From contig NZ_CP041070.1 in the NCBI RefSeq assembly GCF_006459125.1, positions 1,674,001 through 1,738,000 on the forward strand: a stretch of 64,000 bases of DNA, written 5' to 3'. This document shows positions 11,204-18,417 of this stretch, in pieces. Source of the DNA: Halarcobacter anaerophilus. Its GTDB lineage: Bacteria; Campylobacterota; Campylobacteria; Campylobacterales; Arcobacteraceae. Both the position numbers and the translations under genes were made by a program. Every line of letters begins with the position of its first letter. The stretch's first letter is position 1. The notes below the pieces were generated by a model, which was given only the letters and a program-made list of their open reading frames with translations, made no database searches and was not told the origin of the DNA.

Positions 11204-11914
11204 TTATATATGACAACTCAAAATAGATTTATTTGGATCTGTTAAATATTCATACCCGCTATGCATTATATAAATTCCAAAAAGTATAACTAAAATAGAA
11301 GCTATTGTAACAAACAAGTTTCTAAGTGCTACTTGTTTAAATATTCCCACAAAAAAACCTAAAGAGAACATTGCAGGAAGCGTACTTAATCCAAAAATAA
11401 GCATCACAAAAGCTCCCCAAAAAGGATTTCCCGTACTAGCGGCAGTTATTGCAAAAACATATACAAAACCACAAGGAAGAAGCCCGTTTAACATTCCAAG
11501 AAGATAAAAACTCGTAAGAGAATCCGAACCTATTAGTGTTCTAAAAGTTTGTTGATAAAGTTTTGATTTTGAAACAGAGTATTCCAAAGAGGTTAAAAAT
11601 TTTAATTTTCCGCTTAGTGATAAACCTACTAAAATCATTAAAACTCCCGTTGTAAGAAGTAAAATTCCGCTTGTAGTATTATCAAAAGTTACGACTCCGC
11701 CTACAAAACCGAAAATAAAACCTAAAATAACATAAGTAGTAATTCTTCCCAAAGAATAAAGAATATGAGAAATAGCTTGTCTTGTTTTTGACCAGCCATT
11801 ATCAATTTTCGTACTGGAATAGGCTACTACTATTCCTCCACACATACCGATACAGTGTCCAAAAGAGCCTAAAAAGGCAATTGAAATAATTGTTAATATA
11901 CTTATACTTTCCAT
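11204..11914 (-). CDS. DsbD_2/SafE-like six-helix membrane protein, probable copper handling
   Basis: 236 aa with about six hydrophobic helices. The first helix carries GHCIGMCGG (H20, C21, C25), the signature of the sulfite-exporter-like/UreH-type DsbD_2 family often found near cbb3 oxidase or copper genes. LLNGLLPCGFVYV provides another conserved cysteine. It directly follows the NosL-like gene (stop and ATG adjacent), so the pair is co-transcribed. A role in copper export, cytochrome assembly or thiol transfer is inferred; the substrate is unknown. Confidence 0.8.
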   Translation of the reverse strand: MESISILTIISIAFLGSFGHCIGMCGGIVVAYSSTKIDNGWSKTRQAISHILYSLGRITTYVILGFIFGFVGGVVTFDNTTSGILLLTTGVLMILVGLSLSGKLKFLTSLEYSVSKSKLYQQTFRTLIGSDSLTSFYLLGMLNGLLPCGFVYVFAITAASTGNPFWGAFVMLIFGLSTLPAMFSLGFFVGIFKQVALRNLFVTIASILVILFGIYIMHSGYEYLTDPNKSILSCHI

Positions 11915-12418
11915 TTACTCACTCAAAAGTTTTTTTCTAATTAAAGGGTTAGTAAGATTCTCTCCCCTGTACATTTTTAAAAGCATTTCATCAAAAGGTA
12001 TCATATTTATACCCTCTTTTTCATATGCTCCGAAACCGTATCCCATAGGTGTTTTATCAATTTTATTATACCAAGCCTTACGTCCGTTAATATATCTGTT
12101 TGTATCATTTGTATAAACCCAGATTGTAGCCTCTTTTTGAAACTTAATATTTTTATACCAAAGGGCAAAACATCCGACATCATCAAAAAACCAAGTTTTT
12201 CCGTCAGGAGCAACAGCTTGAACAGAATGAACTAAAGTCTCAATAGTCATTCCGCATTGGGTATCCTGATAGTGGTTTAAAGTAATATCCAAAGGTTTAT
12301 GTTCATGATTTCCTTCTTGTATTGTTACCATCTTCTTTTGACTTGACATTGAAAGAAAAATTGAGACAATGATTATAATTAAAATAAATACGGTTAGTAC
12401 GGGTAAAAGTTTCTTCAT
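11915..12418 (-). CDS. NosL-like membrane-anchored copper-binding protein
   Basis: 167 aa. An N-terminal hydrophobic segment (about 5-24) anchors a periplasmic domain. TQCGMTIE (C55, G56, M57) and FFDDVGCFALW (D79, D80, C83) match the CGM...DD pattern of NosL-family Cu(I)-binding proteins. No nos genes are nearby, so it is likely a stand-alone relative feeding copper to, or removing it from, the adjacent DsbD_2-like protein or a respiratory oxidase. AGGA lies upstream of the ATG. Confidence 0.75.
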   Translation of the reverse strand: MKKLLPVLTVFILIIIIVSIFLSMSSQKKMVTIQEGNHEHKPLDITLNHYQDTQCGMTIETLVHSVQAVAPDGKTWFFDDVGCFALWYKNIKFQKEATIWVYTNDTNRYINGRKAWYNKIDKTPMGYGFGAYEKEGINMIPFDEMLLKMYRGENLTNPLIRKKLLSE

Positions 12419-12477: not shown

Positions 12478-12505
12478 AAAAAAGCCTCACTAAAGGTGAA
12501 GCTTT
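12478..12505 (-). terminator. Intrinsic terminator of the candidate sRNA
   Basis: 10-bp stem with one G-U pair, loop CUUUA, closing into a run of six T on the minus strand; it lies between the HAD gene start and the nosL-like gene, where no annotated minus-strand gene ends. Confidence 0.75.
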
Positions 12506-12562
12506 ATGAAATCAACTAGAAAATTAAAATATGACGTAGTAGGAGGAAATTTAATTTTCTTA
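12478..12562 (-). ncRNA. Candidate small RNA: anti-SD hairpin plus intrinsic terminator
   Basis: On the minus strand, an 11-bp perfect stem (12550-12560 with 12518-12528, AGAAAATTAAA) presents a 21-base loop containing UUUCCUCCUACUACG, complementary to Shine-Dalgarno sequences. It is followed by an intrinsic terminator at 12505-12478: stem AAAGCUUCAC/GUGAGGCUUU ending in T6. The one non-Watson-Crick pair is G-U on this strand but C-A on the other, which fixes the orientation. The 5' end is not defined and probably lies between 12570 and 12650. A leader of the nosL-like gene is the alternative. Confidence 0.55.
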
Positions 12563-12694
12563 CACCCTGAAATTTTACAACCATAACGTTAAGTATCTGT
12601 TAATTGCTTATTTTCAAATTTATATACAAAATTTAATAGATAATTTTCCCATAAGAATATATAATAGATTCCTATTTTTTATATAAGGATTTAT

Positions 12695-15007: not shown

Positions 15008-15868
15008 CTACTCTTTTATGATATTTTTAAAATTTAGAATAAATCTGTTCCCCTCTTTTGTAGGTTCGATTTTAATAGCAATTTTATTTTTATCACAAAA
15101 CTCTTTTACCATATAAAGCCCTAAACCAAACCCCTCTTTTGTATTATCTTCTTGAAAAAACTTATCAAAAATAACGAAAAGATTTTTTGTATCTATCTCT
15201 TTTCCTTTATTAAAAATTGTAAGATTTTTATTTTTATACTCAATTTTTATCAAACCATCTTTTTCATTGTTATATTTTAAAGCATTTGAAATAAGATTAT
15301 CTATCATTTTTTGAAAGCCGTTTTGGTCACTGTTAAGAGTAACGTCTTCTACAAAAACTTCAATTTTTGTATCTTTTTTCAAATCTTCAAACTTCTCTAA
15401 GCTATGCTCTATAACTTCAACTAAAGAAAAGTTTGTAATATCGACTCTGTCTATCTCTTTTTTGATATGATACTCCATATCTTCGTAAAGTTTTAAAAGC
15501 TCGTTTGAAGCCAGTTTTATACGGTTTAATCTTTTTACGGCTTTTTCATCGGTAAGCTTTTTTTCAAGCATTTGGGTATTTAGTTTTATAGTAGAAATGG
15601 GTATATTCAGCTCATGCAGAGTCTCTTTTACCGTTTTTTGAAGATTCTCATCACTTTTAAAAAGAGGCTCAAAAATTGACCTGCTTAAAAAAAGATATAA
15701 AACCAATCCGAAAATCATTACACTAAGAGTTATTACAAAAAAAGTGTCTTGATTAAACCCCAATAAAGACATTAGATAAAAATTTATAAAAAGAGATAAA
15801 AGAAGTACAAAAACTACTATAATAGAGTTTGTAATAATAAAGTTTTTTCTTTTGTTGTTATAACTCAA
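15008..15868 (-). CDS. Sensor histidine kinase
   Basis: 286 aa. Two membrane segments (about 12-34 and 42-61) with a very short periplasmic loop, then the DHp helix LHELNIPISTIKL with phospho-acceptor H85, and an HATPase domain with N-box LISNALKYNN and G-box GFGLGLYMVKEF. There is almost no extracellular sensor domain, so it probably senses through the membrane or a partner protein. It overlaps the response-regulator gene by 11 nt. The divergent Na/Pi transporter suggests a phosphate-type signal (inference). Confidence 0.9.
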   Translation of the reverse strand: MSYNNKRKNFIITNSIIVVFVLLLSLFINFYLMSLLGFNQDTFFVITLSVMIFGLVLYLFLSRSIFEPLFKSDENLQKTVKETLHELNIPISTIKLNTQMLEKKLTDEKAVKRLNRIKLASNELLKLYEDMEYHIKKEIDRVDITNFSLVEVIEHSLEKFEDLKKDTKIEVFVEDVTLNSDQNGFQKMIDNLISNALKYNNEKDGLIKIEYKNKNLTIFNKGKEIDTKNLFVIFDKFFQEDNTKEGFGLGLYMVKEFCDKNKIAIKIEPTKEGNRFILNFKNIIKE

Positions 15869-16517
15869 TTTTATACCCTATTCCTTTGATATTTTTGATT
15901 CTATCTTTTCCCAAAAGTTTTTTTAGATTGTTTATATAAACTCTTATTGATCCCTCACTATATTCTTGGTCAAATCCCCAAAGTTTGTTTATAATCATCT
16001 CTTTTGTAATAATCACATCTTTTTTTTCTAAAAACAGCTCCAATAAATCAATAACTTTCCCTGCAATAAAAATATCTTCACCCTTTTGTAAAACTCTCCT
16101 GTTTTTAGGATCAAAACTTATTTCATCGTTTAAATAAATCATTTCCAGAGGCTTACCGCTTCTTTTAAGCAAAGACCAGATTCTTAGAAGAAGTTCATCC
16201 AAATCAATAGGCTTTTTAAGATAATCATCGCAGCCGCTTAAAAATCCTTGGGTTAGTTTATCTTTATCTTTATATGAGGTTAAATATATTGTAGGTGTAT
16301 CGTCTGAAGTTTTACGAAGCTCTTTTAATGTCTCTATTCCGTTAATTTTAGGCACATTTATATCAAAAAGATATAAATCAAAATTTTGTTCATAGCAGAG
16401 TTCAAGAACCTCTTCACCGTTTGATGCAGTTACGACTTCAAACTCTTCTTCTTCCAAAAAGTCCTCTAAAGTCTCTTTAAAAAGTTCATCATCCTCTAAA
16501 ATTAATATTCTATACAA
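15858..16517 (-). CDS. OmpR/PhoB-family response regulator
   Basis: 219 aa. Receiver with acidic pair E8-D9-D10, phospho-acceptor D52 (LFDINVP), T80 and K102 (LKKPID), followed by a winged-helix DNA-binding domain ending SVRVYIN-like SIRVYINNLKKLL and IKGIGYKIEL. Paired with the histidine kinase. A 5-6-5 direct repeat upstream of its own -10 box suggests autoregulation. A PhosR-like role is plausible from the neighbouring phosphate transporter but not proven. Confidence 0.92.
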   Translation of the reverse strand: MYRILILEDDELFKETLEDFLEEEEFEVVTASNGEEVLELCYEQNFDLYLFDINVPKINGIETLKELRKTSDDTPTIYLTSYKDKDKLTQGFLSGCDDYLKKPIDLDELLLRIWSLLKRSGKPLEMIYLNDEISFDPKNRRVLQKGEDIFIAGKVIDLLELFLEKKDVIITKEMIINKLWGFDQEYSEGSIRVYINNLKKLLGKDRIKNIKGIGYKIEL

Positions 16518-16546: not shown

Positions 16547-16578
16547 ATTATATGATAGTTGGGTTAATTTTATGTTAA
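16547..16578 (-). promoter_or_regulatory. Pho-box-like direct repeat and -10 of the two-component operon
   Basis: On the minus strand TTAAC-ATAAAA-TTAAC (16578-16563) is a 5-6-5 direct repeat with 11-bp period, as used by PhoB/PhosR-type regulators. It ends exactly 10 bases before a TATAAT (16552-16547) that would serve the response-regulator gene. The arrangement, an 11-bp repeat replacing the -35, matches activated pho promoters. The exact bases differ from the C. jejuni pho box as I remember it. Confidence 0.5.
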
Positions 16579-16650: not shown

Positions 16651-18417
16651 ATGTTCAAGAAACTTTTTATTATTTTCTTACTTTTGATTACTGGATTTTA
16701 TGTTGTTTCCCAAGAGAATGTAAAAACTATTTTTGCCGGAATTGCAATATTTCTTATTGGAATGCATTTTATGGAAGACGGGTTTAAACTCTTTTCAGGC
16801 GGAACTTTAGAAAAAATTTTAGAAAAATTTACCCAAAACAATTATAGATCTCTTCTTACAGGTTTTATCTCAACTTCTATCGTACAAAGTTCATCTTTAA
16901 TCTCGGTAATCGTAATATCTTTTTTATCCGTTGAGATAATCTCTTTAAGCCAAGGTCTTGCAATTATTTTCGGAGCAAACCTAGGAAGCACTACAACTGC
17001 TTGGATTGTTTCGGCTTTAGGTCTTAATATAAAAATATCATTATATGCAATGCCCATGATTATATTCGGTGTAATTTTCAGATTTTCAAAAAACGGCACA
17101 TATGTAGGACTCGGAGATATTTTATTAGGACTTGGTTTTATATTTTTAGGAATCTCTTATATGAAAGAGGGATTTGAGACTCTAAAAGATGCCATAGATT
17201 TATCTCAATATGCTATGCAAGGAGCTTTGGGAATAGCAATTTATGTAGTAATAGGAGCTATTGCAACTGTAATTATTCAATCAAGCGGTGCAACAATGGC
17301 TATAATAATTACCGCATTAGCAGGAGGAAATATTTTATATATAGATGCCTTAGCTTTGGCAATAGGAGCAAATGTAGGTACAACGGTAACTGCCGTTTTG
17401 GGCTCTTTAAGTTCAAATCAAAACGGTAAACGTCTAGCTTTTGGACACTTTGTATTTAATATGATTACAGGACTTATTGCACTTATTTTTATTTATGCTT
17501 TAAAAGATTTAGTGGATATTTTATCCCCTTATTTAGGGATAAGTGAAAACAGTTACTCTATGAAACTTGCACTTTTTCATACCATATTTAATATTTTGGG
17601 AATATCTTTACTTCTTCCTTTTATTCCTTTGATTGTAAAAGTCTCAAAAAATGTTATAAATGATGACAAGTATAAAAAAAGTTCTAAACCTAAATATCTT
17701 TCAAAAGAGAATATCAAAATACCTTATAATGCCATGGTCTCTATTAGAAAAGAGGTTATAAATCTATATGAAAATGCACAAAAAGCTATTCTTCATGCAA
17801 TTTCAATTCATACGAGTGAATTAAAAACAAAAGAAGATTTAGAGAAACTGCCAAATAAAACAAGTACGAAAATCGATACCAATTTAGATGATATTTACCA
17901 AAATAATCTTAAACTGCTTTATAGCGAGATAATAGAGTTTTCGCTTGTTTCCCAACAACATATGAATAAAGAGCAAAATGAGTATGTAACTCAACTCAAA
18001 TTGGCATCAAATATAATTGTTAAAATCTTAAAAGATACAAGAGATATACAAAAAAATATGAACTTCTATCTAAACAGCAGAAACGAGTATATCAAACAAG
18101 AGTATATTCAGATAAGACAAGAACTTGCCTCTTTTATCTTTGAAGTAAATCAATTAAACAATGAAGAGTTGGATGAAGTTGAAACTTCTGCACTCATTCA
18201 GTCAAATAAAGACAGACGAACTACTCTTGATATAGAAAACAGTAAAAGAGTTGATGATCTAATAAGAACCGAAAAAATAACTTCTAAAATGGCAACATCT
18301 CTGATAAACGATTCAACTACAACATCTAATATATGTAAAAACTTATTAAGAATTGCAAATATTATGTTTATTAGAGATGAGCAGCTTAGAAAACTAGGAG
18401 AGAGTGATGAAACTTAA
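16651..18417 (+). CDS. Na+/phosphate cotransporter family protein with PhoU-like tail (NptA type)
   Basis: 588 aa. Two inverted-repeat membrane halves each with the QSS motif: SIVQSSSLISV (about 79-82) and VIIQSSGATMA, plus GANLGSTTTAW and GANVGTTVTA, the Na/Pi-II family repeats. From about residue 350 on the protein is a cytosolic helical domain resembling PhoU. It would import phosphate with sodium. Divergent from an OmpR-type two-component system, whose regulation may include it. A small coiled-coil ORF follows, overlapping its stop. Confidence 0.9.
   Translation: MFKKLFIIFLLLITGFYVVSQENVKTIFAGIAIFLIGMHFMEDGFKLFSGGTLEKILEKFTQNNYRSLLTGFISTSIVQSSSLISVIVISFLSVEIISLSQGLAIIFGANLGSTTTAWIVSALGLNIKISLYAMPMIIFGVIFRFSKNGTYVGLGDILLGLGFIFLGISYMKEGFETLKDAIDLSQYAMQGALGIAIYVVIGAIATVIIQSSGATMAIIITALAGGNILYIDALALAIGANVGTTVTAVLGSLSSNQNGKRLAFGHFVFNMITGLIALIFIYALKDLVDILSPYLGISENSYSMKLALFHTIFNILGISLLLPFIPLIVKVSKNVINDDKYKKSSKPKYLSKENIKIPYNAMVSIRKEVINLYENAQKAILHAISIHTSELKTKEDLEKLPNKTSTKIDTNLDDIYQNNLKLLYSEIIEFSLVSQQHMNKEQNEYVTQLKLASNIIVKILKDTRDIQKNMNFYLNSRNEYIKQEYIQIRQELASFIFEVNQLNNEELDEVETSALIQSNKDRRTTLDIENSKRVDDLIRTEKITSKMATSLINDSTTTSNICKNLLRIANIMFIRDEQLRKLGESDET

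Follow-up and report, generated by a model that had tools for sequence, protein, structure and literature searches.

The 64,000-nt stretch of the Halarcobacter anaerophilus genome considered here (assembly GCF_006459125.1, contig NZ_CP041070.1, positions 1,674,001 to 1,738,000; hereafter the window) contains an intergenic element on its minus strand that, judged from sequence, is close to certain to be the gene of a small RNA (sRNA) of about 88 nt (12478-12566), its expression being predicted. We propose, and would put the probability at about two in three, that this is a trans-acting RNA which is induced along with copper-acquisition genes when copper is scarce, and which represses the translation of ccoN, the gene for the catalytic subunit of the cbb3 oxidase, so as to spare copper. 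The proposal is carried by four features of the sequences, namely a conserved RNA gene, a promoter box that it shares with other genes, the copper regulon that this box marks, and complementarity between the RNA and the ccoN leader.

On the minus strand the element folds into a perfect stem of 11 bp (12560-12550 paired with 12528-12518, together hairpin 1, 12518-12560) closing a 21-nt loop, UUUCCUCCUACUACGUCAUAU (12549-12529), which carries CCUCCUAC and in which the motif has an unpaired probability of 0.72-1.0. A 12-nt linker separates this hairpin from an intrinsic terminator, whose hairpin spans 12505-12481 and whose U run lies at 12483-12478, and the sole non-Watson-Crick pair of the terminator, U12500-G12486, would be A-C on the plus strand. 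An earlier sequence-only reading of the window had described the same hairpin, loop and terminator, with the non-canonical pair being G-U on the minus strand only, and had remarked that no minus-strand gene ends here; all of this holds, as the element sits in a 276-nt gap flanked by two divergent genes. On one side lies a HAD phosphatase gene of the plus strand; on the other a gene pair of the minus strand, which that reading had missed, begins 60 nt downstream of the element. The opposite reading, in which the plus-strand AGGAGG would serve as a Shine-Dalgarno (SD) sequence, was rejected, since no start codon follows AGGAGG and the fold is weaker. By itself the fold is only moderately unusual (z -2.9, 1/200 against shuffles; z -2.05 for the plus strand), and comparable stems are not rare, being found at about 11 places in the window and 5-13 times per Markov shuffle; none of the stems found across 8 shuffles had CCTCC/GGAGG in its loop. 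What lifts the element above chance is its conservation, as a pattern combining the promoter box with CTCCT is found in 14 of the 16 genomes of the genus.

The seed within the loop, UCCUCCUACUA (12537-12547, minus strand), is the perfect complement of UAGUAGGAGGA in the leader of the organism's own ccoN (genome position 402454-402464, plus strand), giving 11 contiguous pairs at an SD region that ends 5 nt before the start codon of a gene assigned to cbb3 oxidase subunit I by TIGR00780 above its cut-off. Target energies were computed for 402 genes of this genome, drawn from a 400-kb sample together with the window, and genome-wide pattern searches were run alongside. The sequence-only reading had suggested predicting targets among AGGAGG-type leaders, and ccoN ranks first of the 402 at -18.5 kcal/mol, against -12.0 for the next gene; the loops of most relatives place ccoN first or second. 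The pattern AGTAGGAGG occurs at a real gene start for ccoN only, and among the 30 of 57 GTAGNAGGAG sites that were examined there was one clear SD site, that of ccoN, nearly all others lying within reading frames. Across the family the ccoN leader TTAGTAGGAGGAGATTGATG is near-invariant, in 40 of 49 genomes the loop and the ccoN SD of the same genome form 9-15 contiguous pairs, and in a search of 104 genomes for TAGTAGGAGG followed by ATG the ccoN site was by far the most conserved, being present in most genomes with a match, and no other such site is kept family-wide. Complementarity to one particular mRNA site has been conserved, as is expected of a trans-acting sRNA, and the comparison argues strongly for ccoN as the target, through a predicted pairing. 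One other TAGTAGGAGG site recurs widely, in front of a SoxA/TsdA-type cytochrome c gene in about ten Aliarcobacter genomes (for example L247 1504-2497, plus strand), and this gene is likely a second target of the RNA in Aliarcobacter. In the family, ccoN promoters also have a further direct repeat, GTGAC-N5..6-GTGAC, placed immediately ahead of a TATAAA-like -10 element (for example G000:C1:402390-402455, L302), which suggests a second direct-repeat regulator at ccoN, and the ccoN mRNA may start very near its SD.

The RNA gene was traced with two models. A DNA search first located the locus in most members of the genus and model R1 was then built from 11 of them, yielding matches in 15 of the 16 genus genomes and also beyond the genus; model R2 was built from other genera, and its matches, except for a single spurious one, all fall within the family. 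All matches were read individually by eye, so that true members could be separated from terminator-only or partial chance matches. Together the models place the RNA gene in 50 genomes from seven genus groups of one family, the Arcobacteraceae: 15 from the window's own genus (g1), 22 from a group that named records such as Arcobacter caeni identify as Aliarcobacter (g11), seven from g6, three from g13, and one each from g3, g17 and g19. The features kept are the loop, with a CTCCTAC core, and the terminator, joined by the promoter repeat in most groups other than Aliarcobacter; the loop has drifted in several members (G005, G008, G009, G031). The covariation that the sequence-only reading had proposed to look for is present, with four to five compensatory pairs within each clade in the terminator and one compensatory pair within the genus in hairpin 1. 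The stem of the hairpin has been swapped entirely between genera, from GAAAATTAAA/TTTAATTTTC in g1 to TAGGATA/TATCCTA in g11 and g6, and the loop is the same, which is the pattern expected of a scaffold that presents a loop. The element thus has its own promoter and intrinsic terminator and is intergenic and conserved without an open reading frame (ORF), so that the idea of the sequence-only reading, a minus-strand sRNA exposing an anti-SD loop, gains support from promoter, terminator and covariation alike; the promoter shared with copper genes and the ccoN target had escaped that reading.

A number of candidates were set aside in the course of this survey. Weak R1 matches in nine genomes (G025, G067, G097, G021, G023, G027, G028, G090, G076) and second R1 matches in three (G000, G013, G011) were rejected as chance on the grounds that they cover the terminator only or, in G013, lack the terminator. 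The R2 match outside the family (G245) has neither the loop nor the promoter box and was likewise judged to be chance, as was about half of the pattern matches in a wider search of contigs (Polaribacter, Clostridium and others), which lack hairpin, box and terminator. A multi-copy family was also rejected: the pattern of promoter repeat and loop finds a single locus per genome in 14 of the 16 genomes of the genus, and one additional match overall. Two variations among the relatives may be mentioned. In many of them the linker before the terminator (12506-12517 in the window) has the conserved sequence ATTTGAATA, which the window's copy does not share (alignments A3 and A4) and which is possibly a second functional element of the RNA. 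In Aliarcobacter copies (L038 and others) the 5' arm TAGGA is complementary to TCCTA in the loop of the same RNA, and the competing fold that this allows, which hides the seed, may act as a switch.

The promoter of the sRNA reads TTAAC-N6-TTAAC-N10-TAAAAT. The direct repeat TTAACAGATACTTAAC (12588-12603, minus strand), invariant in 11 aligned genus members, is the presumed response-regulator box, and with a -10 element TAAAAT at 12572-12577 on the same strand (promoter match 12572-12603 and alignment A2) transcription is predicted to start near 12565. Within the window a perfect TTAAC-N6-TTAAC occurs only twice, at this promoter and 46 nt upstream of a gene for an OmpR-family response regulator (15858-16517, minus strand; PF00072 and PF00486), where the match TTAACATAAAATTAAC-N10-TATAAT spans 16547-16578 (minus strand). 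The repeat stands exactly 10 nt from the -10 element in both promoters, a geometry typical of PhoB/CiaR-type activators. This regulator, encoded 4 kb from the sRNA, is the proposed activator; its gene overlaps that of a histidine kinase partner (15008-15868, minus strand; HisKA and HATPase domains), and its orthologues in four genomes (G002, G003, G005 and G007) are 76-83% identical and all have the box upstream. Divergent from the regulator gene lies a gene of the Na/Pi cotransporter family (16651-18417, plus strand).

Across the genus the pattern TTAAC-N6-TTAAC-N9..11-TANNNT gives 6-10 sites per genome, compared with 0-6 for the reversed pattern used as control, and the genes downstream were checked for a sample of sites. 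Behind the sampled boxes stand the response regulator itself, divergent NosL genes (PF05573), PCu(A)C (PF04314), ExbB and TonB receptors; for the one receptor that was tested the best curated model is that of the TonB-dependent copper receptor (TIGR01778), with an E value of 7e-55 and a score below the model's cut-off. The first gene downstream of the sRNA in the window (11915-12418, minus strand, 167 amino acids) has no match in a Pfam search, and its assignment rests on an AlphaFold model (pLDDT 66), for which the five best PDB matches in Foldseek are all NosL copper chaperones (probability 0.99-1.00, E 0.003-0.05); it is followed by a DsbD_2/TauE-SafE-like membrane protein gene (11204-11914, minus strand; PF13386, E 5e-50) whose synteny is kept in other genera. 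From this gene content the boxes mark a copper-acquisition regulon, and the sRNA has its box in common with NosL, PCu(A)C, TonB-copper receptor and ExbB genes, as would be expected of a metal-sparing RNA; copper control of the sRNA is a strong deduction. High copper represses OprC-type receptors in other bacteria, as it does OprC of Pseudomonas aeruginosa (PMC7558416), so that copper scarcity is by analogy the likely inducing signal.

From these features we infer that the RNA is expressed, that copper is its signal and scarcity the direction, that this regulator is what activates it, and that it represses translation. The two-component system encoded 4 kb away would activate the sRNA from the direct-repeat box, most likely under copper scarcity, and the regulator would in this way raise copper uptake and the sRNA together. 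The hairpin loop would then present UCCUCCUACUA to the SD region of the ccoN mRNA (UAGUAGGAGGA) and block ribosome binding, so that less cbb3 oxidase would be made and the demand for copper would fall while uptake rises. We consider it rather probable that the arrangement holds throughout the family, with a dedicated two-component system raising copper uptake at copper scarcity, the sRNA stopping translation of the cbb3 oxidase as the main copper enzyme of respiration, and the loop and the ribosome-binding site of ccoN evolving in concert.

Other explanations deserve consideration. As the nosL-safE gene pair lies on the same strand 60 nt downstream, in an order kept in several genera, and as the promoter box would suit such an operon, the hairpin and terminator might be a 5' leader that attenuates the operon in cis by read-through and has no target in trans. 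This seems rather improbable: other genes follow the RNA in some genomes, an unrelated small ORF and a TonB receptor in G014 (L006) and an FtsX-like gene in g13, which weakens the idea, the loop is far better conserved than the stem, no alternative antiterminator pairing was seen, and the loop matches ccoN and not the SD of nosL (AGGAAUU). A trans-acting RNA could instead be broadly directed at SD sequences, in the manner of the streptococcal csRNAs, with ccoN merely the strongest SD among many targets. AGGAGG is after all the core of SD sequences in general, ccoO scores as well, at rank 9, and the TAGTAGGAGG leader is shared by the Aliarcobacter cytochrome c genes noted above; against this, the seed reaches beyond the SD core into a conserved extension (ACUA), and whereas TAGGAG before ATG is common (274 matches), a match of 9-10 nt is near unique, so that we hold a broad target range to be improbable as well.

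The RNA and its target might also be as described and the signal be another, such as oxygen, redox state or an excess of copper, the purpose then being respiratory switching and not copper saving. The cbb3 oxidase is a redox-controlled enzyme, and copper-responsive two-component systems often respond to excess copper; the regulon, however, is made up of genes for uptake and delivery (TonB receptor, ExbB, NosL, PCu(A)C), such as one would expect at scarcity, and this variant is in our estimation unlikely. Several observations weigh against the preferred reading, a copper-sparing sRNA acting on ccoN. That scarcity and not another cue would be the signal is deduced from the gene content of the regulon. 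No other gene in the sample has an SD as strong as that of ccoN, and the plain anti-SD tail of 16S rRNA also ranks ccoN first, albeit at -11.2 kcal/mol, so that the affinity is partly that of a generic strong SD and partly that of a specific extension. Matches are weaker in seven genomes (G005, G008, G009, G031, G062, G071, G107), and the leader is intact in two (G001, G090) where no sRNA was found. The promoter box is degenerate in most Aliarcobacter, and control of the sRNA may therefore differ there. A single change of the ccoN leader, to UUGUAGGAGG, took place in one Aliarcobacter clade; in four genomes from two lineages of this clade the loop is altered to CCUCCUACAA, which brings the match back to 11-15 pairs (15 in G074), but another six with the new leader retain the old loop and 9 pairs. 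A permutation test of cognate against non-cognate pairings gave p 0.11, which is not significant because the leader is so invariant, and with a single leader change to draw upon, co-evolution under selection for pairing is suggestive and not proven.

Metal-sparing RNAs are textbook knowledge for iron, and the logic proposed here, whereby an sRNA within a metal-acquisition regulon lowers the synthesis of metal-using enzymes, is that of RyhB and other iron-sparing sRNAs, which differ in metal, in sequence and structure, and in their control by Fur derepression instead of a two-component activator. In form the RNA resembles the streptococcal csRNAs, which are short, expose an anti-SD and end in a 3' terminator hairpin, and whose promoters carry an OmpR-family direct repeat of 11-nt period (TTTAAG-N5-TTTAAG, compared with TTAAC-N6-TTAAC here); yet the csRNAs are CiaRH-controlled, occur in several copies and have their anti-SD between hairpins, whereas the present RNA belongs to a copper regulon, is single-copy and has its anti-SD in a loop, and there is no sequence relation, the CiaR box differs, and the phylum is another (PMC3091779). 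It is csRNA-like in form and RyhB-like in logic, and a member of neither family. Within the same phylum, CJnc230 of Campylobacter jejuni is an sRNA of about 98 nt with a putative anti-SD (CCUU) in a single-stranded stretch, but it is RpoN-dependent and flagellar, its motif lies between two stem-loops, and no homology was shown (PMC11187230). The sequence-only reading had drawn a parallel with RepG of Helicobacter pylori, also of this phylum, which stands for the C/U-rich loop and fails for the type of target, as RepG binds a G-repeat within the leader of tlpB (PMC8295292) and the present RNA would pair with the SD of ccoN. The CruR/CutF leader ORFs similarly tie post-transcriptional control to bacterial copper genes, but are cis-acting and protein-coding, unlike a non-coding RNA acting in trans (PMC9426467). 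No Rfam family was matched at its gathering score; the best, GcvB, scored 26.6 bits where 42 are required, and a known Rfam RNA was rejected on this basis. A full-text literature search found no copper-sparing bacterial sRNA, although most subscription journals were beyond its reach and such absence is not proof.

Elsewhere, a long tandem repeat occupies G000:C1:1250034-1253791, with AGTAGGAGAAGATG recurring 13 times or more at a spacing of 312 bases.

As of 2022 the control of copper by small RNAs in bacteria was described as uncharacterised (PMC9426467), and this gap would be filled, if the proposal is true, by a family-wide RNA that ties copper supply to the synthesis of a terminal oxidase. 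The proposal has a single testable target, and the natural sequences supply a ready compensatory-mutation test. It would also give the Arcobacteraceae a named candidate regulator for copper acquisition.
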